Source: Buchnera aphidicola (Taiwanaphis decaspermi) (GTDB lineage Bacteria; Pseudomonadota; Gammaproteobacteria; Enterobacterales; Enterobacteriaceae). From it: 64,000 nucleotides of DNA. The notes below the pieces were generated by a model. It saw only the letters and a list, made by a program, of their open reading frames with translations, was not told where the DNA came from and ran no database searches. The position numbers and the translations under genes are program-made. Positions 3,327 through 59,777 of this stretch are shown in pieces. Each line of letters starts with the position of its first letter. Within the stretch, counting starts at the first letter, position 1. The stretch spans positions 124,001-188,000 of the forward strand of contig NZ_CP135049.1 in NCBI RefSeq assembly GCF_039405155.1, given 5' to 3'.

Positions 3327-4142
3327 ATGCCAGAATTACCTGAAGTAGAAGTTATATGTAATGATTTAAAAAGAAAAATTTTAAATAAAAAAATTATAAA
3401 AACTTGTATTAGAACAAATAAATTAAGATTCAAGGTATCTTCTAAATTTTATAAATTAAATAATGTTTTAATATTAAAAATTCGTCGTTATGCTAAATAT
3501 ATATTGTTAAAATTGAGTGAAGGTTATATTTTAATTCATTTAGGAATTTCAGGTACTTTAAATATTATGTCACAAAAAAAACATATCAAATTCAATAAAC
3601 ATGATCATATAGATTTATATATTAATAAAAAATATATATTAAGATACAATGATCCTAGAAAATTTGGTTTTTGGTTGTTTTTTTTTAAAATATCATCTAT
3701 TAAATTTTTAAAAAAACTTGGTCCTGAACCATTAAGTGATAATTTAAATTATATAAATCTTTATAAATCAATTAGAAATAAAAAAATATGTATAAAAAAT
3801 TATTTAATGAATCAAAAATATATATCTGGTATAGGTAACATTTATGCTAATGAGATATTGTTTTCTTCAAAAATATTACCATATCGCGCTTCTAAATCTT
3901 TAAATATTGAAGAAACAAAAAAACTAGTCAAATATATAAAAAAAATATTGTTAAAATCTATTGATAAAGGAGGAACTTCTATTAGAAATTTTAAAAATAT
4001 TTTCCAAATAAAAGGTAAATATCAAAAACACTTGAATGTATATGGTAAAACAGGAAAACCATGTATAAATTGTAAAAAAAGTATTTTAAACATCATACAA
4101 TCTAATAGAAAAAGTTTTTTTTGTGCAAAATGTCAGTTATAA
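3327..4142 (+). CDS. mutM: Formamidopyrimidine-DNA glycosylase (8-oxoguanine repair)
   Basis: MutM (Fpg) excises oxidised purines such as 8-oxoguanine and nicks the abasic site. The sequence keeps the full catalytic set: N-terminal MPELPEVE with the nucleophilic Pro2 and Glu3, and Lys57 in RRYAKYILLKL. The helix-two-turn-helix region shows GIGNIYANEILF (about residues 168-180). The C-terminal zinc finger has four cysteines (CINC...CAKC). Length is 271 residues, against 269 in E. coli. It starts 19 bases after nuoN and looks like a passenger of that operon. In E. coli mutM lies with the rpmBG genes, so this place is unusual. The gene appears intact and functional. Confidence 0.95.
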   Translation: MPELPEVEVICNDLKRKILNKKIIKTCIRTNKLRFKVSSKFYKLNNVLILKIRRYAKYILLKLSEGYILIHLGISGTLNIMSQKKHIKFNKHDHIDLYINKKYILRYNDPRKFGFWLFFFKISSIKFLKKLGPEPLSDNLNYINLYKSIRNKKICIKNYLMNQKYISGIGNIYANEILFSSKILPYRASKSLNIEETKKLVKYIKKILLKSIDKGGTSIRNFKNIFQIKGKYQKHLNVYGKTGKPCINCKKSILNIIQSNRKSFFCAKCQL

Positions 4143-4150
4143 ATGTACAT

Positions 4151-4178
4151 AATTTAATTTATTTATATAAATTAAATT
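4151..4178 (+). terminator. AT-only hairpin after mutM
   Basis: A perfect 12-bp inverted repeat (AATTTAATTTAT / ATAAATTAAATT) with a 4-base loop lies 9 bases after mutM. It contains no G or C, so it may be chance in such AT-rich DNA. It is a possible 3' end for the nuo-mutM transcript. Confidence 0.3.
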
Positions 4179-4271
4179 ATAAAATTAATTTAAAAAAAAA
4201 TGTAATTTAAAATTAAGAAATCATATATGTTAAACATATTAATATTTTATAAAAACTAAGGTAACAAAATT

Positions 4272-5537
4272 TTGTATAAATCTAAACCTAATATAAATTC
4301 TTCATTAAATTATTGGTTAAATTATATTACTTCAATACAAAAAGATTGTTTTTATTCAAATTTTGGTTTAATTTATAAATTATCCATAAAATATAATTTA
4401 AATAAATTAGATGCTACCATAATAGTTGTTTCAGGAACTAATGCAAAAGGTAGTACTTGTAATATATTGGAAAAATTATTATCATCTTTTGGATACAAAG
4501 TAGGTTTATATACCTCTCCTCATTTAATAAAATATACAGAAAGATTAAAAATTAATGGATGTTATCTATCAGATATAAAACATATACATGCACTTACATA
4601 TATCAATTATATTAGAAAAAATATAAGATTAACTTACTTTGAATTTTCGACATTATCTATATTATATTTATTAAAACAATATAAATTAGATTTTATAATA
4701 TTAGAAGTAGGTCTTGGTGGTCGTTTAGATGCAACTAATATAATTGATTCTGATATTTCTATTATTACAAATATTGATTTAGATCATACTAAATTATTAG
4801 GAAGTAATAGAGAAAGTATATCATTAGAAAAAGCAGGTATATTCCGTAACTTTAAAAAATCAATTATTGGTGAAACTAATATACCAAAAAATATATATAA
4901 AATAGCACAATATAAAAACACTATTTTAATTAGGAATAAACATGAATGGTTGTATAACAATACAAAACATTTTTGGAGTTATCATGACATACAAGGTTCA
5001 ATAAGTAATTTACCATATAATGTCAATGCTTCTTGTAAGAGTTTTTCTATAGCTATATCAACAATTAGAAATTTAAACATAATTTATAATATAAATAAAA
5101 TTAAAAAAATTGTTAAAGATTTCCATTTTCCAGGAAGATTTAATATTATATCTAAAAATCCAAAAATTATTTTGGATGTAACTCATAATCCAAATGGATC
5201 TAATTATTTATTCAAAAAATTGTCTTATTTATCAATTAAAGGAAAATTATATATTTTAATTGGAATGTTAAAAGACAAAAACATAGAGAAAACTATTTTC
5301 CCATTTATTTCAATTACTGATATTTGGTATTGTGTTTCTCTAAATACTATTAGAGGATCTAAAGCATATCAAATTGCTAAATATTTAAATAAAAATACTT
5401 ACTATATGTTTGATGATATTAAAAAAGCTTATAATAGCGTATGTAAAAAGGCTAAAAAAAAAGATACAATATTAGTTTTTGGTTCTTTTTTTTTAATATC
5501 TGAAATTATAAAAATAAATAATATAAATATTTTATGA
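4272..5537 (+). CDS. folC: Bifunctional folylpolyglutamate / dihydrofolate synthase
   Basis: FolC joins glutamate to dihydropteroate and adds glutamates to folates. The protein has 421 residues (E. coli 422). The P-loop at about residues 55-61 reads GTNAKGS where the family has GTNGKGS. Other Mur-ligase-type motifs are intact: SSPHL-like TSPHLIKYTER, LEVGLGGRLDATN, the DHT metal/ATP region (DLDHTKLLG), and the C-terminal domain motif LDVTHNPNGSNYL. The start is TTG at 4272, preceded by AAGG at about 10 bases; no better ATG exists nearby. It is followed by cvpA, the same neighbour as in E. coli. Confidence 0.95.
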   Translation: MYKSKPNINSSLNYWLNYITSIQKDCFYSNFGLIYKLSIKYNLNKLDATIIVVSGTNAKGSTCNILEKLLSSFGYKVGLYTSPHLIKYTERLKINGCYLSDIKHIHALTYINYIRKNIRLTYFEFSTLSILYLLKQYKLDFIILEVGLGGRLDATNIIDSDISIITNIDLDHTKLLGSNRESISLEKAGIFRNFKKSIIGETNIPKNIYKIAQYKNTILIRNKHEWLYNNTKHFWSYHDIQGSISNLPYNVNASCKSFSIAISTIRNLNIIYNINKIKKIVKDFHFPGRFNIISKNPKIILDVTHNPNGSNYLFKKLSYLSIKGKLYILIGMLKDKNIEKTIFPFISITDIWYCVSLNTIRGSKAYQIAKYLNKNTYYMFDDIKKAYNSVCKKAKKKDTILVFGSFFLISEIIKINNINIL

Positions 5538-5645
5538 AATAAATATTAATAAAATAAGTGTTATAGTATTAAAAATAATTTTATTATAATATTTTATATT
5601 TTTAATTACTTTAATATTATATATTTTTTTTTTGGAAATTTGTTT

Positions 5646-6038
5646 ATGACTTCTATAGATTATTTAATTACAATCATTTTAATTTTATCTACCTTAATAA
5701 GTTTTATTAGAGGATTTTGTAAAGAAGTTTTATCAATTATTTTTTTTATTTTGGTTATTAGTATATCATATGAATATTATTACAAATTTTATAATTTGTT
5801 TTCTATTATACAAAACGATACAATAAGACGCGTAACAACTTATGGTTTTTTATTTTTTTTAATATTAATATCTGAGTCTAACTTTAATAAATTAATCAGT
5901 TATTTTATAAATAAAATAAATGTATCTTATTTAGATAAAATATTAGGATTGATTTTTGGTTTTATACGAGGAATTGTATTAAATGTTCTATTAGTATTTT
6001 TTATAAATTTTTTATCTTTATTTCCTTATTATAATTAA
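5646..6038 (+). CDS. cvpA: CvpA family inner-membrane protein
   Basis: CvpA is a four-helix inner-membrane protein linked in E. coli to colicin V production and envelope stress; its molecular role is unclear. The N-terminus MTSIDYLITIILILSTLISFIRGF aligns without gaps to the E. coli protein, which fixes the start at ATG 5646 (GGAAA about 9 bases upstream) rather than at the in-frame TTG at 5640. The conserved segment LDKILGLIFGFIRGI is present. At 130 residues it is about 30 shorter than E. coli CvpA (162), and the missing part is the cytoplasmic C-terminal tail. It lies downstream of folC and is convergent with prs. Confidence 0.88.
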   Translation: MTSIDYLITIILILSTLISFIRGFCKEVLSIIFFILVISISYEYYYKFYNLFSIIQNDTIRRVTTYGFLFFLILISESNFNKLISYFINKINVSYLDKILGLIFGFIRGIVLNVLLVFFINFLSLFPYYN

Positions 6039-7081: not shown

Positions 7082-7402
7082 TTTTATAACCTTATTAAAT
7101 AATTTATTTTTTATTATATATTATTTTTAATATATAATATTAAAAATATTAAAAAAAATTTATATAATTATATATATATATATTATTAAAAACAAATTTT
7201 TAATAAATTAATTATATTTAATATTGTATTAATATGATATGATTATATAAAATATTCATAAATATAATTAATATATATTAATACATTATTTTATTTTTAT
7301 TATTTTATTTAATTTGAAAAATAATATATTAATTTATATATTAGTAAAACATATTAATTATATTTTTTATAAAAATTTAAATGTAAAATAAATTATAAAA
7401 AT
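7082..7402. other. Gene-free AT-rich interval between prs and prfA
   Basis: These 321 bases between divergent genes are almost pure A/T, with TATA-type repeats near 7160-7190. No open frame or RNA-like structure is visible. It must hold the promoters of both prs and prfA, but promoter calls are unreliable in such composition. ispE, and hemA in E. coli, would be expected near here; no recognisable remnant remains. Confidence 0.6.
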
Positions 7403-25388: not shown

Positions 25389-25961
25389 ATGAAAATGATA
25401 GTAGGACTAGCTAACCCAGGTAAAAAATATAAAAATAATCGACATAATGTCGGATCATGGATGATTAACTTATTATCAACTTACTATAACGTTTTTTTAA
25501 AAAAAAATGATTATTTTTTAAGCTACACATCTATTATAAAAAATAAAAATAACAAAATTAAAATAGTTGTACCAAATACATATATAAATTTAAGTGGACA
25601 TCCGGTTAGTTTAATTAAATCTTTTTATAAAATAAAATCTAAAAATATTTTTGTAGTGCATGATGACATGAATTTGGACATTGGTATCATAAAAATAACA
25701 TATGGAAATAAATATGGTGGTCATAATGGTATAAAAAACATTTTAGAAAAAATAAACAATAAAAAAATATATAGATTAAGAATAGGTATTGGTAGACAAA
25801 AAAAAAATGAAAGCATTAAATCTTTTGTGTTAAATAATCCTAATTATAAAGAAAAAAAAAAAATATTAAAAGGAATTAAATTAGGTTTAATTTTTTTTAA
25901 ACTTTTATTAAAATTTGATATTAATAAAGCTATGCATTTTTTAAAAAGAAGAAAAAAATAA
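25389..25961 (+). CDS. pth: Peptidyl-tRNA hydrolase
   Basis: Pth recycles peptidyl-tRNAs dropped from ribosomes. Length is 190 residues (E. coli 194). The catalytic histidine is His19 in NNRHNVGSW, and the other family blocks VGLANPGKKY, VPNTYINLSGHPV, VVHDDMNLDIG and YGGHNGIKNI are complete. Several long A runs occur in the second half (for example at 25853-25862), which are slippage-prone, but the frame is intact. It lies before ychF, the same pairing as in E. coli. Confidence 0.96.
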   Translation: MKMIVGLANPGKKYKNNRHNVGSWMINLLSTYYNVFLKKNDYFLSYTSIIKNKNNKIKIVVPNTYINLSGHPVSLIKSFYKIKSKNIFVVHDDMNLDIGIIKITYGNKYGGHNGIKNILEKINNKKIYRLRIGIGRQKKNESIKSFVLNNPNYKEKKKILKGIKLGLIFFKLLLKFDINKAMHFLKRRKK

Positions 25962-32774: not shown

Positions 32775-32818
32775 ACAAATATATTATAAAACTAACTTTT
32801 TTTTATTAAATATTTTAT

Positions 32819-32872
32819 GTACACCAAGAAATGAATAACTATAATTTTTATTGTTTAAAATTTCTTGTGTAC
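32819..32872. terminator. Long hairpin between convergent hpt and pcnB
   Basis: GTACACCAAGAAAT (32819-32832) pairs with ATTTCTTGTGTAC (32860-32872) with one bulged C, around a 27-base loop. It lies 45 bases after the hpt stop and about 100 before the pcnB stop. Confidence 0.55.
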
Positions 32873-32968
32873 TAATATTTATTAGATATTATTAATTTTT
32901 ATTTAAAATTTTTTGTGTTTATTAAAATTAATAAATAAGATTATTATTATTTAATATTTAGTATTTAA

Positions 32969-34168
32969 TTAAAAATTAAATTTTTTATTAGTCCAAAAAT
33001 TTACATAATATTTTAATTCTTTTGTTTTTTCTACATTAGCTCTCATTTTTAATAACATGTATCCTAAATAAAATCTAGGATGTTTAATAACTTTAAAATT
33101 AGTTTTAGATTTTTTTTGTAATAAAAAAAATTGCAATTTCCATATTTGACGAATTATAAGTATAATTTTTTTTGGTATTAATAAGTTAATAGATATTTTT
33201 CTTATAGAATCATTAATTTTTAATTCACATTCATTATTATATTTTTTTTTTATAGAAAATATATTTTTAAAAAAAAAATTTAGTTGAGGATACCAAAACA
33301 TTGATGCAATAACTAAACTAATATTGTTTTTTTTATTTATTTTATAATAATTTTTTAAAATTAATTTAATCATTAATTCAATATTACTACTTTCATTTTT
33401 AGTAAAATATTTAGAAATATGAGGAAATATAGCATGAAATAATAAATATCTTCTTAATATTTTATATGTATAATAAATATTTCCTTTGTTAAATAATTTT
33501 ATTAATTCATCAAATAATCTAGATGGTGAAACATTTATAATTAGTTTAGATAAAGGTGCTATTGCTTGAGAAGTTTTATAAGATATACTCATATTTAAAT
33601 ATATAGAAAATCTAATTACCCTTAACATTCTAATTGGATCTTCTTTATATCTTATTATAGGGTTTCCTATTAACTTAATTTTTTTATTTTTTAAATCTTT
33701 AATTCCTCCAACATAATCTCTAATACCAAAATCATTTGGATTATAATACAAACTATTAATAGTTATATCTCTTCTAAAAGCATCTTCTCTAATGTTACCA
33801 AATATATTATCTCTTAATAACATACCATGTATTGTTTTTTGAGATTTATTTCTTATTTTTTTATTTTTTTTTATATGATCTCCTCTGAATGTTGACACTT
33901 CAATTATTTTTTTTTTAAAAAATAAATGTACAATTTTAAATCTTTTTCCAATTATTCTAGAATATTTAAATAATTTACAAATTTGTTCTGGAGTTGCATT
34001 AGTTGTAACATCAAAATCTTTAGGAATTTTATTTAATATTACATCTCTAACACTTCCTCCTACTATAAAAGCTTGATATCCATATTTGTTTAATTTTTTT
34101 AAGACTAATTTAGCATATTTGCTAATTTTACACTTTAGCTTATTATGAAATTTATTATGTATAATCAT
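32969..34168 (-). CDS. pcnB: Poly(A) polymerase I
   Basis: PcnB adds poly(A) tails to RNA 3' ends, promoting decay. The protein is 399 residues, against 465 in E. coli. The nucleotidyltransferase core shows VGGSVRDVILNKIPKDFDVTTNATPEQI, with GLLRDNIFGNI-type and RRDITINSLYYNPNDFGIRDYVGG blocks, then YKEDPIRMLRVIRFSIYL. The helical body and the FWYPQLNFF and HPRFYLGYMLLKMRA regions align. The arginine-rich C-terminal tail is gone. The blocks favour PcnB over the related tRNA CCA-adding enzyme. In E. coli pcnB follows panBC and folK, none of which is here. Confidence 0.93.
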   Translation of the reverse strand: MIIHNKFHNKLKCKISKYAKLVLKKLNKYGYQAFIVGGSVRDVILNKIPKDFDVTTNATPEQICKLFKYSRIIGKRFKIVHLFFKKKIIEVSTFRGDHIKKNKKIRNKSQKTIHGMLLRDNIFGNIREDAFRRDITINSLYYNPNDFGIRDYVGGIKDLKNKKIKLIGNPIIRYKEDPIRMLRVIRFSIYLNMSISYKTSQAIAPLSKLIINVSPSRLFDELIKLFNKGNIYYTYKILRRYLLFHAIFPHISKYFTKNESSNIELMIKLILKNYYKINKKNNISLVIASMFWYPQLNFFFKNIFSIKKKYNNECELKINDSIRKISINLLIPKKIILIIRQIWKLQFFLLQKKSKTNFKVIKHPRFYLGYMLLKMRANVEKTKELKYYVNFWTNKKFNF

Positions 34169-34502
34169 TATATATTTAGGAAAAAATATTCGTTATTATA
34201 ATACTATAAGTTAAATTATTATATATCAAAAATTTGATTAACATTAAATATTTTTTGTATTTATACTTATAATTAATATTTGTATGTGAATTTATTTTTT
34301 ATTAAAAAAAAAAAAATTATTTCATTTGTAAAAAAATTAATTTTTATTAAATTATTTTTTATTATTTAAAATATATATATTTTTTCAACATAAACTTTGA
34401 TATTTATATATTTTACATTAAAATATATTAATTAATTTATTTGTATTTTAAATAAAAAATATAAATTTATATATATATAAAATACAATAGGAAAAATATT
34501 AT
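34169..34502. other. Gene-free interval between pcnB and truA
   Basis: These 334 bases between divergent genes hold only A/T-rich sequence with homopolymer runs. No frame or stable structure stands out. dksA would lie about here in other Buchnera as I recall; no remnant can be read. Confidence 0.5.
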
Positions 34503-35291: not shown

Positions 35292-35557
35292 CATTATGTT
35301 AAAAGATATGTGTATTATAATAAAATTTATTTTTATTTGTTTAAATCAATTTATATTAAAAATAAAAATTATTTTTCTATAAAAGTTTATTTTACTTAAA
35401 ATTTTTTGATTATATAAATAAACATAATTTTAATAATATTGTAAGTCTATAAATACTATTCTAATTCATTTTTTACTGTTACAATAGATAATTTAATAGT
35501 TCTATTTATTTTGTATACAATAACTATATTTATAAATATATTAATAGAGAATATTTA

Positions 35558-45317: not shown

Positions 45318-46031
45318 CTAAAAATTACTTAGATTATTTTTAATAATATTAAAATTTTCTAAAACACAAAATAATATTTTTGAAGAATTATAAACAGATA
45401 AAGATAAAAAATTTTTAAAATCATAATGAGATTTTTCGTTAGAAAAATCAGATATAGATTTTATTACTATGATCGGTATTTTAAATTTATAACAAACGTG
45501 AGATATGGCACATGATTCCATATCTACAGCTATTGCTTTAGGAAATTTTTTTAAAATATTAATACTTCTTTTTTTGTTTATAAATTGGTCCCCAGTTAAC
45601 AATAATCCTGTTATAATTTTTTTTTCTGAAATAATTTTGTTTTTAAATTTATTAAATATAATTTTATTTATTTTCATAAAAGCAGGTATTTTAGGTATTT
45701 GTCCTAATTTATATTTAAAAGCAGTAACATCAACGTCATGATACCCAATTTTATTGGGTATTAATATAGTTCCTATTTTATATTTATTACTCAAACTTCC
45801 AGCAGAACCTATATTAATCATAATTTTTATATCAAAATTATTTATTAATATCATACTACTTATTGTTGCTGAAACTTTTCCTATCCCAGAAATGATAATA
45901 TAAATAACAAAATTATATACTTTACCAAAATAAATTTTAAAACCACAAATTTTTATTTTTTTTTTGTTTTTTATTTTTTTATATATTAAAAAAGCTTCTT
46001 TTTTAATTGCAACAATTACACCTATCTTCAT
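45318..46031 (-). CDS. mtn: 5'-methylthioadenosine / S-adenosylhomocysteine nucleosidase
   Basis: Mtn (Pfs) hydrolyses methylthioadenosine, S-adenosylhomocysteine and 5'-deoxyadenosine. The protein is 237 residues (E. coli 232). Catalytic residues are kept: Glu12 near the N-terminus (VAIKKEAFLI), the glutamate in AVDMESCAIS, and Asp in SISDFSNEKSHYDF. The substrate loop SGIGKVSA and GSAGSLS match. The gene precedes lpd on the opposite strand and follows erpA after 23 bases. Without speE its main substrates here would be SAH and 5'-deoxyadenosine. Confidence 0.96.
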   Translation of the reverse strand: MKIGVIVAIKKEAFLIYKKIKNKKKIKICGFKIYFGKVYNFVIYIIISGIGKVSATISSMILINNFDIKIMINIGSAGSLSNKYKIGTILIPNKIGYHDVDVTAFKYKLGQIPKIPAFMKINKIIFNKFKNKIISEKKIITGLLLTGDQFINKKRSINILKKFPKAIAVDMESCAISHVCYKFKIPIIVIKSISDFSNEKSHYDFKNFLSLSVYNSSKILFCVLENFNIIKNNLSNF

Positions 46032-46054: not shown

Positions 46055-46393
46055 TTAAATGTTAAACGATATTCCACAACTACATGTATTTTTTGCATTA
46101 GGATTAATTACTATAAATTTAGAACTTTGCAAAGTTTTTTTATAATCTAATGTGCTTCCTATTAAATATTGAAAACTAATATAATCTACAACTAAAACAA
46201 TTTTTTTTTTTATATAAATATCATTTTTTTTTAATGCATTGTCTGTGCAAAACAAATATTTGAATCCATTACATCCTCCTCCTGTTATGTATATTCTAAA
46301 ATATTTTTTTTTGTCATCATTAAGTATTATTTTTTTAATTCTTTTTATTGCATTTTTCGTAATATTTAATTTTTGTTTTTCAACATTATTCAT
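46055..46393 (-). CDS. erpA: Iron-sulfur cluster carrier ErpA (A-type)
   Basis: ErpA delivers Fe-S clusters to target enzymes; in E. coli isoprenoid enzymes IspG and IspH are among them, as is respiratory complex I assembly. The protein is 112 residues (E. coli 114). The three cluster ligands are Cys41 in YITGGGCNGFKY and Cys104/Cys106 in NPNAKNTCSCGISFNI. It lies 54 bases after rsmH. In other Buchnera the whole division and cell-wall cluster separates these two genes, as I recall. Confidence 0.96.
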   Translation of the reverse strand: MNNVEKQKLNITKNAIKRIKKIILNDDKKKYFRIYITGGGCNGFKYLFCTDNALKKNDIYIKKKIVLVVDYISFQYLIGSTLDYKKTLQSSKFIVINPNAKNTCSCGISFNI

Positions 46394-46447
46394 TTTATTT
46401 TTCCATACAAAGAATTAATTTTAAAATAACTAAATTTTTTATTTATA

Positions 46448-47386
46448 TTATTTTTTTTCTATAGTGCGCATAATTGCACTACGAGAAGATCTGTTTTTTT
46501 GTTTTTCATGAACACTAGGAAATATTTTACTAATTATTTTTATTTTTTTTTTTCTTATACTATTTATTTGAATTTCTGTAAGAGGTAGTTTATTAGGTAT
46601 TGAAATTTTACCGCTAAATTTGTTTATAAATTTTTTTACTATTTTATCTTCTAATGAGTGAAAACTAATAATTGTCAATCTTCCTTTTTTTTTTAATATT
46701 TTTAAAGAGTGATTTAGTATTGATTTCAATTCTTTTAATTCTTGGTTAATAAATATACGAATTGCTTGAAAAGTTTTAGTAGCCGGATGTTTATTTCTTT
46801 TTCTTAAAAAAATGTTATTTTTGATAATTTTTGATAATTCTAAAGTATTTTTTATATCTTTTTTTTTTTTATAATTAAATATTAATTTAGCTATTTTTTT
46901 AGAAAATCTTTCTTCACCATATTTTCTTAATACTAATTCAATAGATTTTTGATTAGATTTTGACAACCATTGACGAGCGTTGATGTTATTTTTATTAGAA
47001 TTGTCTATTCTCATATCTAAAGGTCCTTTTTTAATAAAAGAAAAACCTCTTTTAGGATCATTTAGTTGTATAGATGATATTCCTAAATCTATTATTATTC
47101 CATTAATTAATCCTAACATTTTTTTTTTTTTGATATATTTTATTAATTTTGAAAAACTCAAATGTATTATTTTAAATCTATTATCTTTTATTTTTTTTTC
47201 TCCATATTTTACTGCTTTTAAATCTTTATCTATTGCGTATAATTTTCCTTTACTATTTAATTTTTCTAATATTTTTTCAGAATGACCTCCTCCTCCAAAA
47301 GTACAATCTATATATATACCATTAGGTATAATATTAAGAGATTTAATGCTTTCTTTTAACAAAACACTTTTATGTTTTTTTATCAT
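46448..47386 (-). CDS. rsmH: 16S rRNA m4C1402 methyltransferase
   Basis: RsmH methylates cytosine 1402 of 16S rRNA in the ribosomal P site. From ATG 47386 it has 312 residues (E. coli 313) and starts MIKKHKSVLLKESI; the upstream in-frame TTG at 47410 is less likely. The SAM motif YIDCTFGGGGHSEKIL, GIIIDLGISSIQL, RGFSFIKKGPLDMRID, ARQWLSKSN and KTFQAIRIFINQEL are intact. In enterics rsmH opens the mraZ-rsmH-ftsL-ftsI-mur cluster; here it is the sole remaining gene of that cluster. Confidence 0.96.
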   Translation of the reverse strand: MIKKHKSVLLKESIKSLNIIPNGIYIDCTFGGGGHSEKILEKLNSKGKLYAIDKDLKAVKYGEKKIKDNRFKIIHLSFSKLIKYIKKKKMLGLINGIIIDLGISSIQLNDPKRGFSFIKKGPLDMRIDNSNKNNINARQWLSKSNQKSIELVLRKYGEERFSKKIAKLIFNYKKKKDIKNTLELSKIIKNNIFLRKRNKHPATKTFQAIRIFINQELKELKSILNHSLKILKKKGRLTIISFHSLEDKIVKKFINKFSGKISIPNKLPLTEIQINSIRKKKIKIISKIFPSVHEKQKNRSSRSAIMRTIEKK

Positions 47387-47464
47387 ATTATTTTTATGTA
47401 TATTTAACAAATATTTTTTATTGTTTGTATTATATTTTTTTTAATACATATATATATAAATATA

Positions 47465-47941
47465 TTAATTCTTATGTATTACTACAATTCCCGATCTAGA
47501 TGTTTCAATAATATTAGAATCTTCTTTTATTATTTTTATGAAAGAATTTATCCTTTTATTGTTGTCTGTTAATTGAATTATATATTTGTTTAATTTGATA
47601 TTTATTATTTTTCCTTTAAATTTTTTTATATTTTTTTCTATTTCTTTTTTTTTATGTTTTTTTAATTTTATTTTTAACAAAATTATTTCTTTAGTAATAT
47701 AATCTAAAAAATTCAACTCTCTAACTTGTAAAACATCTATCAATTTATGTAATTGTTTTTTAATTTGTTCTAAAGTATTATTATCTCCAATAGTTTGTAT
47801 AGTCATGGAAGATAAAGTTGGATCTTCTGTAGGAGAAACGGTTAAACTTTCAATATTGTATCCTCTTTGTGAAAATAAGCCAACTACTCTTGATAAAGCT
47901 CCTGATTCATTTTCCAGAATTATTGATAATGTTTTAAGCAT
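47465..47941 (-). CDS. ilvH: Acetolactate synthase III, small regulatory subunit
   Basis: IlvH activates IlvI and mediates valine feedback. The protein is 158 residues (E. coli 163). The N-terminal ACT domain, [36 protein letters not shown], is strongly conserved. The C-terminal half is diverged and lysine-rich but ends with the family-like [10 protein letters not shown]. Its ATG overlaps the ilvI stop region by 8 bases, which implies coupled translation. Whether valine sensitivity survives cannot be told by eye; the key N-terminal residues look normal. Confidence 0.96.
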
Positions 47942-49661
47942 TATAAACTCTCTTTTTTTTAGGATGTCTTAATAACATATCTTTCATTGATCCATTTCTA
48001 ATTTGCATTGGATACACATGTTCTTTTTTATCAACGAAAATATTTACAAAAACTAATTTTCCTTTTTTTGATTTTTTTATAGCTAACTTTAACTTTTCTT
48101 TTAATTCATATGAATATTTTATATTAATACCTATATGACCATATGATTTTGCTAATGTTACAAAATCAGGTAAAGATTTCATATATGAATGAGAATGTCT
48201 GCCATCATAAATCATATCTTGCCATTGTTTAACCATACCTAATGAACTATTATTTAAATTTATTATTATTATCGAGAGTTTGTATTGCATAGCTGTAGAT
48301 AATTCTTGAATATTCATTTGAATACTACCATCACCTGTTATACAAAAAACATTTTTTTTAGGAAAAGCTAATTTTACTCCTAATGCAGCCGGTAAACCAA
48401 AACCCATAGTACCTAAGCCTCCTGAATTTATCCATCTTCTAGGTTTATTAAAATGATAATATAATGCAGTAAACATTTGATGTTGGCCTACATCTGAAGT
48501 TATATAAGCATTACCTAAAGTTAATTTATATAATGTTTCTATAACTAATTGAGGTTTTATTTTTTTTTCATCTTTTCGATATAACAAACTTTTTTTTTTT
48601 CTACAATTATCAATAAATTTCCACCATTTAACAATGTTATTTTTTAACATATTTTTTTTGTTTATTAAATAAATAAATTTTTTTAAAATTTTTTTAGCAT
48701 CACCAATAATAGGAATGTCTGCTTTTACTGTTTTGGATATAGATGTTGGATCAATATCTATATGTAATATTTTTGCATTAGGACAATATTTTTCTAAATT
48801 ATTTGTTGTTCTATCATCAAATCTGACGCCAATAGCAAATATTAAGTCTGCATAATGCATAGCCATGTTAGCTTCATAGGTTCCATGCATTCCTAACATA
48901 GATAAATTTTGATAATGATTACCTGGAAAAGATCCTAAAGACATCAAAGATGTTACAACTGGTAATTTTAGTTTTTTAGCAAAAATATACAATTCCTTAT
49001 GACATTCTGAGCTAATTACTCCTCCTCCTGAATATATTATCGGTTTTTTAGATTTCATTAATATTTTAAAAGCTTTTTTTATCTTTTTCAAATTAATTTT
49101 TTTTTCAGGATTATAAGATCTAATGTTAATTTTTTTAGGGCATATGTATATTTTTTTTTTATAAACATTCAATATATCTTTAGGTAAATCTATAACTACA
49201 GGTCCTTTTCTTCCTGTAGAAGATATAAAAAAAGCTTTTTTAAAAATTAATGGTATGTCTTCTGTATTTTTTACTAAAAAACTATGTTTAACTATTGGTC
49301 TTGAAATTCCTATCATATCACATTCTTGAAAAGCATCATAACCAATCAAAGATGATGATACTTGGCCTGATATTATTATCATTGGTATAGAATCCATATA
49401 TGCTGTTGCTATGCCAGTAATAGAGTTAGTTGCTCCTGGACCAGATGTTACTAATACAACACCTGTTTTCCCTGTAGCTCTAGCATAACCATCTGCCATA
49501 TGAGTAGCTCCTTGCTCATGTCTTACTAAAATATGTTTTATATTTTTATTTTTTTTTAAAGCATCATATATATCTAAAACTGCACCTCCTGGATATCCAA
49601 AAATATATTTTATATTTTGATCGATTAAAGATTGAACGACCATTTCTGCACCTGACATCAT
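47934..49661 (-). CDS. ilvI: Acetolactate synthase III, large catalytic subunit
   Basis: IlvI makes acetolactate and acetohydroxybutyrate, the first common step to valine, leucine and isoleucine. It is 575 residues (E. coli 574). Visible are the cofactor glutamate in [39 protein letters not shown], the quinone-like FAD region RFDDRTTNN, and the thiamine diphosphate motif [18 protein letters not shown] to [14 protein letters not shown]. The family reads [12 protein letters not shown]; here NNSSLG. AAAGGAAAAA upstream of ATG 49661 is a good ribosome site. The product supports essential amino-acid supply to the host. Confidence 0.98.
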
Positions 49662-56543: not shown

Positions 56544-56722
56544 AAAATATTGAATAAATAATATTTAAAAATATTTTTTAATTCTTATGCAATTTTTTTT
56601 GTAAGAAATAAAAATTATTATTTTTTATTAATACAATAAAGTTATTTTTTAAATAAAAAAAATTTTATATATACAACACAACATTTATGTAAACTATATA
56701 ACAACATAGAAAAAATTTTATT

Positions 56723-59098
56723 ATGAAAATAAAAAAACTTTTGATATTTTTAATGTTATTTATTAATTTTAACATATGTTATGCATGTAATAATTTAAAT
56801 AACATTAATATATTAGGAATTGAAAAAATACCTTTCAGTAAAATATTAAATGCTATATCTAAAAATATACAATCAAATAAAGATGTTTTTAAATCAGATA
56901 ATATTATTCATAATTTATTTAATACAGGTTATTTTAATAATATACAAATAAAAAATTTTGATAATAAAACTTATATATATTTGAAAGAAAAAAACATTAT
57001 TTCTAATGTACTATTTAAAGGAAATATTACTATAAGTAATGATGTTATTAAACAATGTTTATCTTCTCTTAATATTAAGAAAAATGAATATTTTGATAAA
57101 TATTATTTTTTTTTATTTAATAAAAAAATAAAAAAAAAATATTTTATTAAAGGAAAATATGGAGCTCATTGTAATTTATCAATAACTCATTTACCAAATA
57201 ATTATGTTCAACTAAATATAAATATAGTAGAAGGTGTGAATTCTATATTAAATAAAATAAAAATAGTAGGAAATAAAAAATATTCTAAAAATATGTTGTT
57301 AAACATGTTCAATAAAAAACATAATGTTTTTTTATGGAATTTACGAAATAAAAATTATTATTATCCATATGAACTTTCTAAATCATTAAAAAAATTACAA
57401 GAATTATATTTTAAAAACGGTTTTATTAATTTCAAAATTAATTACATATCTGTTATTTTTTCTAAAAATAGTATGAAATCTAATATTTATGTTAATATCC
57501 ATGAAGGAAATCAATATAAAATAAAAAAAATAAATGTGTTTTCTAACACAAAAAATTTAAAAAAATTAATAAAAAAAATTTTTAGAAATTATAACAACAA
57601 TCTATATAATATAAATTTTATAAAAGATATTGAAAATAAAATTAAAGAATTTTTAAGTAATTATGGATATTTAGAACCAGAAATAAATATATATCCTATT
57701 ATAAATCATAATAAAAATACTGTAGAATTATCTTGCTATATTAATAAAGGTTATTCATTTATAGTAAATAATATTTATATCACAGGAAACATTAATACTG
57801 AAGATAATGTTATCAGAAGAGAGATAAAACAGTTAGAAAACAAAATAATTAATATCATGTTTGTTAAACAAAGTGAAGAAAATATCAAGAATAGTGGTTA
57901 TTTTAGCTCGGTTAATACTCAAATAGTACATACTAAAAATACTTTAAATAAAGTAGATATCATCTATACAGTTAAAGAAAAAAATAATAACGAAATAAAT
58001 GTTGGTTTAAAATATAAAAAAAAAACAGGTGTTAATTTTAATATAAGTTTAAATCAAAATAATTTTTTAGGTACAGGTAATATATTTAGTTTTGAAGGAA
58101 ATAAAAATTTACAAAATAATAGTTTTTCAACATCTTTTATTTATTTTCCTAAATATTCAAAAAAATATAATTTTAGTAATATGTTTTATTTTAAAAATGT
58201 AAAGAGAGATGAATACGATGATTTAAATTATAAAAAAATAATTTATGGAATGAAAAACAACATATATATTAATAAAAAAGAAAATAAAAGTATTAATTTA
58301 GGATTAGATTATAATAATAATGTAATAAAAAAAATAGAAGATAATTCTTATATTGTTCATGATATAAATTCAAAAAAAACATTTAATGGAAACTCAAAAC
58401 ATTTTAATATTTTCGTAAAAGATTTATTTATGAATTATTTTTTTAGTATAAAACATCATAATAATTTTTATAATTATAATAATATATATATATCAGGAAA
58501 AATAACATTTCCTTTTTCTAATAATTTTTTTTATAAAACAGAAATAGAATCTAATAAAGAATTATTATTAAATAATAAAAAAAATATTTTATTAAGAATG
58601 AAAAATAAAATTGGTTATGGTAATACTTTAGATTATAAAGATTATCCTTTTTATGAAAACTTCAACCTATTATATGCTGATAAAATTAGAGGTTTTGATC
58701 CATATAGTATTGGTATTAAAAAATATTACAAACATAATAGATCTTTTTACAAAAAACATTTAGAATATTTTTCTGGAGGTAATGCTGAAATATTTAATAA
58801 TGTTGAATTAGTTATACCTCATTATATTAATATAAATGATAAAAAAATTAGATTTCAAACTATATTTTTTGTAGATGCCGGTGGTTTATGGAATAGTAAT
58901 TTTAAAGAATTAAATAAAATACATAAATTAAGTTGTATTTTAAACAAACATAGTTTTTTCCCAAAAAAAATAAATATTTCTAGTGGTGTAAATTTTAAAT
59001 GGATATCTCCTATAGGACCATTAAGTTTAGCATTATCTATCCCTTTAAAATGCAATAATGGAGATGTTATAGAATTTTTACAATTTAATTTTGGCTAA
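56723..59098 (+). CDS. bamA: Outer-membrane protein assembly factor BamA
   Basis: BamA is the Omp85-type core of the machine that inserts beta-barrel proteins into the outer membrane. The protein is 791 residues (E. coli 810). A signal peptide (MKIKKLLIFLMLFINFNICYA) is followed by five POTRA repeats (to about 410), with VEGVNSILNKIKIVGNKKY and YINKGYSFIVNNIYITGN typical. The barrel shows the (V/I)RGF motif as KIRGFDPYSIG, and ends SPIGPLSLALSIPLK...EFLQFNFG. The final signal lacks the usual last aromatic residues (E. coli ends NIGKTW). The barrel is very Asn/Lys-rich. No other Bam protein gene lies in the window. Confidence 0.96.
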   Translation: MKIKKLLIFLMLFINFNICYACNNLNNINILGIEKIPFSKILNAISKNIQSNKDVFKSDNIIHNLFNTGYFNNIQIKNFDNKTYIYLKEKNIISNVLFKGNITISNDVIKQCLSSLNIKKNEYFDKYYFFLFNKKIKKKYFIKGKYGAHCNLSITHLPNNYVQLNINIVEGVNSILNKIKIVGNKKYSKNMLLNMFNKKHNVFLWNLRNKNYYYPYELSKSLKKLQELYFKNGFINFKINYISVIFSKNSMKSNIYVNIHEGNQYKIKKINVFSNTKNLKKLIKKIFRNYNNNLYNINFIKDIENKIKEFLSNYGYLEPEINIYPIINHNKNTVELSCYINKGYSFIVNNIYITGNINTEDNVIRREIKQLENKIINIMFVKQSEENIKNSGYFSSVNTQIVHTKNTLNKVDIIYTVKEKNNNEINVGLKYKKKTGVNFNISLNQNNFLGTGNIFSFEGNKNLQNNSFSTSFIYFPKYSKKYNFSNMFYFKNVKRDEYDDLNYKKIIYGMKNNIYINKKENKSINLGLDYNNNVIKKIEDNSYIVHDINSKKTFNGNSKHFNIFVKDLFMNYFFSIKHHNNFYNYNNIYISGKITFPFSNNFFYKTEIESNKELLLNNKKNILLRMKNKIGYGNTLDYKDYPFYENFNLLYADKIRGFDPYSIGIKKYYKHNRSFYKKHLEYFSGGNAEIFNNVELVIPHYININDKKIRFQTIFFVDAGGLWNSNFKELNKIHKLSCILNKHSFFPKKINISSGVNFKWISPIGPLSLALSIPLKCNNGDVIEFLQFNFG

Positions 59099-59256: not shown

Positions 59257-59721
59257 TTGAAAAATATTAAAAAAATTAAAATATCAAATTATTTACCACA
59301 TAGATATCCAAACTTAATGATTGACAAAATATTAAAAATTAAAAATAATTTTTATATTAAAACAATAAAAAATATTAGTAATAACGATATTTTTTTGCAA
59401 GGTCATTTTTATTCAAACCCAATTTTTCCAGGAGTTATGATTATAGAAACGATGGCACAATCTTCATATTTATTATTTTCATTAAGTAATAAAATTAATT
59501 TAAAAAAAAAATTAAGTAGCTTTTTTTTTGTTGGTGTAAATTTTGCAAGATTTAAGTCTAAAGTTTTTCCAGGAGATCAATTAGTTATAAAAAGCATAAT
59601 TATTAAAAAAAAAATATCGTTCTATTTTTTTAAATGTATAGCTATTGTTAGTAAAAAAGTAGTATGCGAATCTGAATTAATGTTTTATTTTTGCAAAAAT
59701 AAAACTAAGAAATTGTTTTAA
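59257..59721 (+). CDS. fabZ: 3-hydroxyacyl-ACP dehydratase FabZ
   Basis: FabZ dehydrates 3-hydroxyacyl-ACP in fatty-acid elongation. It has 154 residues (E. coli 151). The catalytic His is in YLPHRYPNLMID and the catalytic Glu in FPGVMIIETMAQSS. ARFKSKVFPGDQL is also conserved. The start is TTG 59257 with AGGTC about 8 bases before; there is no nearby ATG. lpxD, lpxA, lpxB and rnhB, its neighbours in E. coli, are absent, so it is kept for fatty acids or lipoate rather than lipid A. Confidence 0.95.
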   Translation: MKNIKKIKISNYLPHRYPNLMIDKILKIKNNFYIKTIKNISNNDIFLQGHFYSNPIFPGVMIIETMAQSSYLLFSLSNKINLKKKLSSFFFVGVNFARFKSKVFPGDQLVIKSIIIKKKISFYFFKCIAIVSKKVVCESELMFYFCKNKTKKLF

Positions 59722-59777
59722 TTTTTATTTTAATATTATAATTTTTTTTTATTTTTTAATCTTTTTTTAGGAAATAT

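Follow-up and report, generated by a model that had tools for sequence, protein, structure and literature searches.

The dcw cluster and the searched peptidoglycan and Z-ring genes are missing from the Buchnera of the aphid Taiwanaphis decaspermi

In Buchnera aphidicola of Taiwanaphis decaspermi, the dcw cluster of mur and fts genes no longer lies between erpA and rsmH, and the whole genome lacks the peptidoglycan and Z-ring machinery that we searched for. The stretch analysed here, referred to as the window, comprises 64,000 nucleotides of the chromosome (contig NZ_CP135049.1, positions 124,001 to 188,000). Judged from its genes, the symbiont is most likely wall-less and without a Z-ring. We consider it highly probable that the dcw genes and the other wall and Z-ring genes searched were lost by erosion, and that the cell lives without a wall and divides independently of FtsZ.

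The assignment to Buchnera aphidicola is supported by a very low GC content, a Buchnera-type trpEG plasmid and a chromosome that is known as Buchnera. The window has 16–24% GC per 4 kb, which agrees with the 21.2% published for the 453,895 bp chromosome CP135049 (Lu et al., 2024; PMC11193766). The main text of that paper contains no occurrence of the terms peptidoglycan, fts or cell wall. The second contig (L073, 1–3088) is a plasmid of 3,088 bp, whose only ORFs longer than 100 aa are trpE and trpG, named from matches to plasmid records. Buchnera accounts for 49 of the 55 plasmid records matching it, and the best identity of its TrpE among the plasmid records listed is 62%.

On the minus strand of the window, the gene order is ilvI, ilvH, rsmH, a spacer of 54 bp, erpA and mtnN (Table 1). 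The preliminary description claimed that erpA and rsmH lie 54 bp apart, that the whole mur/fts cluster is absent between them and that the rRNA methyltransferase gene survives. The coordinates, read directly, give this distance, both genes score above their NCBIfam cut-offs, and the 13 genes that occupy the place in G001, the single genome of the same GTDB genus that was compared with the genome of the window (G000), are unmatched there. rsmH is complete and is the sole surviving gene of the dcw cluster; its product is 52% identical to RsmH of G001. By homology, translation may start at an ATG eight codons into the ORF, which is listed with a TTG start; this is immaterial to the gene loss. mtnN is the syntenic neighbour in the window and G001 alike, and the two ORFs upstream of rsmH, which we take to be ilvH and ilvI, share 55% and 74% identity with G001 ORFs arranged in the same order. 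There is no N in the window, and no protein match by tblastn falls inside the spacer, which is too short for a remnant-gene test.

Table 1. Retained genes and places of gene loss in the window (positions are those of the window)
Feature	Position	Strand	Remarks
Lost alx-type TerC gene and accD	4143–4271	no strand	just before folC; G001 ORFs unmatched in the window
folC	4272–5537	+	only Mur-ligase-superfamily gene found in G000
Lost ispE	7082–7402	no strand	between genes presumed to be prs and prfA; G001 ispE (TIGR00154, 254 bits) unmatched in the window
Lost mrcB (bifunctional penicillin-binding protein)	35292–35557	no strand	gap just before the gene presumed to be secA
mtnN (5'-methylthioadenosine/SAH nucleosidase)	45318–46031	-	NF004079, 209.5 bits (cut-off 169)
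erpA	46055–46393	-	left flank, intact, 112 aa; NF010147, 125.7 bits (cut-off 117)
Spacer	46394–46447	no strand	54 bp, 9% GC; place of 13 dcw genes in G001
rsmH	46448–47410	-	right flank, intact, 320 aa as listed; TIGR00006, 344 bits (cut-off 154)
ilvH and ilvI (presumed)	47465–49661	-	syntenic neighbours upstream of rsmH
Lost dxr and uppS	56544–56722	no strand	between the gene presumed to be frr and a bamA-like gene; G001 ORFs Dxr and UppS unmatched in the window
fabZ-like ORF (name presumed)	59257–59721		kept; aligned to the G001 ORF after bamA

Over the stretches compared, G001 and the window are colinear, and the erpA–rsmH interval of G001, 15,153 bp long, holds ftsZ, ftsA, ftsQ, ddl, murC, murG, ftsW, murD, mraY, murF, murE, ftsI and ftsL. 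These genes were named by Pfam and NCBIfam, and murC and murF were distinguished only by their order and by tblastn comparison with other genomes. When the 15 G001 proteins from ErpA to RsmH were compared with the whole window by tblastn (E ≤ 0.01), only ErpA, RsmH and MurE found a match; MurG and Ddl are among those left unmatched. What MurE matched (25% identity, E 1e-5) proves to be FolC, which scores 401 bits with NF008101 (cut-off 360) and 41 bits with the murE model TIGR01085 (cut-off 257).

The same place is occupied to various degrees in other genomes. In G044, taken as the Buchnera of Baizongia pistaciae, 11 of the 13 dcw genes are matched in place, and no match is listed for ftsQ and ftsL. 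G011, taken as the Buchnera of Cinara confinis, keeps only ftsZ and ftsA between erpA and rsmH. G030, taken as the Buchnera of Nipponaphis monzeni, has murC, murG, murD, mraY, murF and murE in place, and ftsZ, ftsA, ftsW and ftsI are gone. The gene order that the preliminary description gives for the pea-aphid Buchnera is found in G001 and G044 and, in part, in G011. We also notice that G030 (L072, 1000–5400) combines mur genes in place and one transpeptidase with no match to FtsZ, FtsA or MinD, that is, peptidoglycan genes without a Z-ring, and that its ErpA match begins only after the first 30 query residues.

The genome of 456,983 bases in two contigs has a computed completeness of 99.78%. 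Searches of this whole genome gave no match to FtsZ (and no candidate; G001 has one match), FtsW/RodA (PF01098), the penicillin-binding transpeptidase (PF00905), MraY or UppS, and none of the candidates scored for FtsA (one) and MinD (four) passed. G001 and the E. coli control were positive in each of these searches. The sole Mur_ligase_M match (PF08245), at C1:128428–128910, corresponds to positions 4428–4910 of the window, inside folC, and the sole EPSP_synthase match (PF00275) is AroA (454 bits, vs 80 for murA). Both families are widespread among the 79 genomes compared: Mur_ligase_M is matched in 76 (not in G011, G033 and G070) and EPSP_synthase in 78 (not in G033), G000 included. A cluster relocated elsewhere, the outcome that would have told against the preliminary description, is ruled out by these family searches, in which the only signals, a weak one for Mur ligases and one for EPSP synthases, are FolC and AroA.

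The lipid II pathway was represented genome-wide by MurA, MurC–F and MraY, all of which are gone. The absence of both PF00905 and PF01098 leaves no match to a wall polymerase or cross-linking enzyme. Anchoring and positioning of the Z-ring were represented by FtsA and MinD genome-wide and by minE at its site.

Further losses were found at five other syntenic places, namely those of mrcB, murA, minDE, dxr with uppS, and ispE. The gene order is kept on both sides of these places, and for min on the one side compared. The proposed absence of mrcB before secA is confirmed by a gap of 266 bp and by the lack of any transpeptidase match in G000; the G001 ORF at this place, with Transgly (PF00912) and Transpeptidase (PF00905) domains, is unmatched in the window. 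At the murA site, 156 bp lie between two retained ORFs (291,872 and 292,029 on C1). On the side compared, the 3.7 kb of G000 beyond the conserved neighbours contain nothing that matches minD or minE of G001. The absence of dxr and ispE refers to their syntenic places, and that of accD and the alx-type TerC gene to the place before folC.

These places bear on the question of whether the cluster is present in the organism and was dropped by the assembly at the erpA–rsmH join. The genome comes from a short-read metagenomic assembly, and some of the 29 genomes of that study were finished with NOVOPlasty and Geneious; however, all 29 are stated to be circularised and Pilon-corrected, and 453,895 bp is given for this one in Table 1 (PMC11193766). 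One bad join cannot explain the pattern, since related genes of the same pathways are missing at five other places with the order kept. Both genes flanking the join are intact, and the tested genes are absent from both contigs. We therefore regard an artefact as very improbable, and take the loss of the cluster as real.

Several other differences from G001 were observed. At the min site, two further short G001 ORFs are likewise without a match in G000. The bamA-like ORF at 56723–59098 (791 aa, with POTRA and Omp85 domains) is 27% identical to the G001 copy, and the other shared genes compared have about 38–80% identity at the best match. The G001 genes that we take, from Pfam families and recall, to be panC, panB, folK and dksA are missing from the window at 32775–34502, and the gene for RNase HII, which in G001 separates the fabZ-like ORF from the next long ORF, is gone at 59722–59777. 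Three genes of the window found no counterpart among the ORFs of the G001 stretch that was compared: a poly(A) polymerase gene (32969–34168), a peptidyl-tRNA hydrolase gene (25389–25961) and, after folC, an ORF of the Colicin V production (cvpA-type) family (5640–6038). The formamidopyrimidine-DNA glycosylase gene (3327–4142) is one intact ORF in the window and aligns to two adjacent G001 ORFs, so that the gene looks split in G001.

From this gene content we infer, in line with the preliminary description, that the T. decaspermi Buchnera has neither peptidoglycan nor FtsZ-based division. It would class as an FtsZ-independent divider, with no FtsZ gene in the complete genome, FtsA and MinD absent and minE gone at its site. 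The genes were probably lost by stepwise inactivation and erosion, in a symbiont that is inherited vertically and subject to drift and deletion bias. rsmH and erpA were probably kept because their roles lie in ribosome methylation and iron–sulphur assembly rather than in the envelope. The resulting cell would have no peptidoglycan and no FtsZ ring, and may stay intact because the bacteriocyte is isotonic and a host-derived vacuole surrounds the cell. The loss of the undecaprenyl-phosphate branch (uppS, dxr, ispE) fits the loss of the wall, because the lipid carrier of the wall would no longer be needed. The mode of division is the least certain part of this scheme: scission may be driven by the membrane, as in wall-less L-forms, or constriction and its pacing may be supplied by a host membrane.

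Gene lists can mislead in this respect, since the Buchnera of Rhopalosiphum maidis still makes a wall, as detected by labelling, despite its mur losses (PMC9116674). A wall might persist in T. decaspermi too, if enzymes encoded by the host or a co-symbiont make or supply the precursors, by a patchwork as in mealybugs or a compensation as in R. maidis. Aphids carry the bacterial genes ldcA, amiD and rlpA, which are, however, described as putative hydrolases and not as precursor synthases (PMC9116674). According to the same paper, Aphidini Buchnera are often without murC, murE and/or murF; here MurA, MurC–F and MraY are all gone genome-wide, and so are the transpeptidase, the SEDS polymerase and UppS. 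We hold a persisting wall to be improbable and retain the reading of a wall-less cell.

By comparing small genomes, we asked which of these genes are present together. Eight genomes were picked by hand (G000, G001, G007, G011, G021, G030, G033 and G044) from the 11 that, among the 79, do not exceed about 616 kb, with G006, G008 and G070 left out; G007, G021 and G033 may not be Buchnera. FtsZ and MinD are present in the same three genomes (G001, G011 and G044) and agree in all eight. MraY and UppS also agree in all eight, both being present in G001, G007, G021, G030 and G044. For FtsZ and MraY, all four combinations of presence and absence occur in the eight genomes. Fisher's test gives p = 0.018 for each of the two fully agreeing pairs and p = 1 for FtsZ/MraY (n = 8, kinship ignored). 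FtsW/RodA is found in 3/8 (G001, G044 and, in two pieces, G007) and the transpeptidase in 5/8, where the G021 match is only at the cut-off of 22.1 bits and that of G030 is mrcB by position and length. FtsA is found in 4/8, including G007 (51 bits), which yet lacks FtsZ, and division genes are thus not lost strictly as one block. As this comparison shows, the module for the wall and that for division are lost separately.

The agreement of FtsZ and MinD in these eight genomes also speaks against the idea that division still relies on FtsZ, supplied from the host nucleus or from another symbiont. MinD is missing as well, and minE is gone at its site. We know of no aphid ftsZ gene, and the idea has no supporting point beyond being possible in principle; we judge it extremely improbable and keep to division independent of FtsZ.

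The trees give few supported branches, with 1 of 10 inner branches starred in the RsmH tree of 13 genomes and 1 of 8 in the TrpE tree of 11 rows. In a tree of four proteins from five genomes, the split that joins G000 and G001 has a support of 46/48. Independent loss is not proven, and rests on the same-genus label of G001.

We speculate that aphid symbionts have repeatedly and independently dropped two modules, namely the Z-ring with Min and the wall together with its lipid carrier. The Taiwanaphis lineage would have lost both, along with the isoprenoid supply (dxr, ispE) and perhaps the malonyl-CoA supply (accD), and envelope growth and fission would have passed to the host cell in an organelle-like manner. 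If accD is gone altogether, this would hint at fatty acids supplied by the host and favour host control; the retained fabZ-like ORF argues that fatty-acid synthesis is not lost completely. The scheme as a whole is tentative and rather unlikely to hold in full. If it were true, comparing Taiwanaphis with relatives of the G001 type would reveal the host genes that took over.

A combined loss of wall and division genes is already in print. The Buchnera of Stegophylla sp. is reported to have lost almost the entire set of peptidoglycan genes together with every cell-division gene (Smith et al., 2022; PMC9116674), which is the combination found here for the genes searched, and our finding is therefore less surprising than it would otherwise be. 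Stegophylla belongs to another aphid subfamily, and its Buchnera chromosome has 412,953 bp, compared with 453,895 bp in T. decaspermi. Moreover, fabZ is listed as lost in the Buchnera of Phyllaphidinae (PMC11188193, Table 2), whereas a fabZ-like ORF is kept here. For Buchnera from most of the other aphid subfamilies, a near-complete loss of peptidoglycan genes is described, and the text reports no coincidence between the losses of wall genes and of division genes (PMC9116674).

Other Buchnera share one half of the pattern. Like the T. decaspermi symbiont, G011, a Lachninae Buchnera, has lost the mur genes at erpA–rsmH and shows no match to MraY, the transpeptidase, FtsW or UppS; in contrast, it keeps ftsZ, ftsA and minD, and ftsZ and ftsA are given for 100% of 15 Lachninae Buchnera genomes (PMC10591338, Table 2). 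G030 likewise has no match to FtsZ, FtsA, FtsW or MinD, but keeps six mur/mraY genes, one transpeptidase and uppS, so that the opposite half of the machinery is lost. Beyond aphid symbionts, Wolbachia of supergroup J and Chlamydia are described as dividing without FtsZ while retaining the majority of the genes for peptidoglycan precursors, with MreB, RodA and PBP2 also kept in Wolbachia J (PMC10591338); the T. decaspermi Buchnera, unlike the latter, has no match to the RodA family or to the transpeptidase. What is new is a further lineage with the combined loss, the loss of the lipid-carrier branch, and the FtsZ–MinD and MraY–UppS pattern in eight genomes. By its genes, this is a further Buchnera with neither a wall nor a Z-ring; a second genome of its GTDB genus has retained the searched wall and division genes, and such a pair makes bacterial division without FtsZ testable in aphids.
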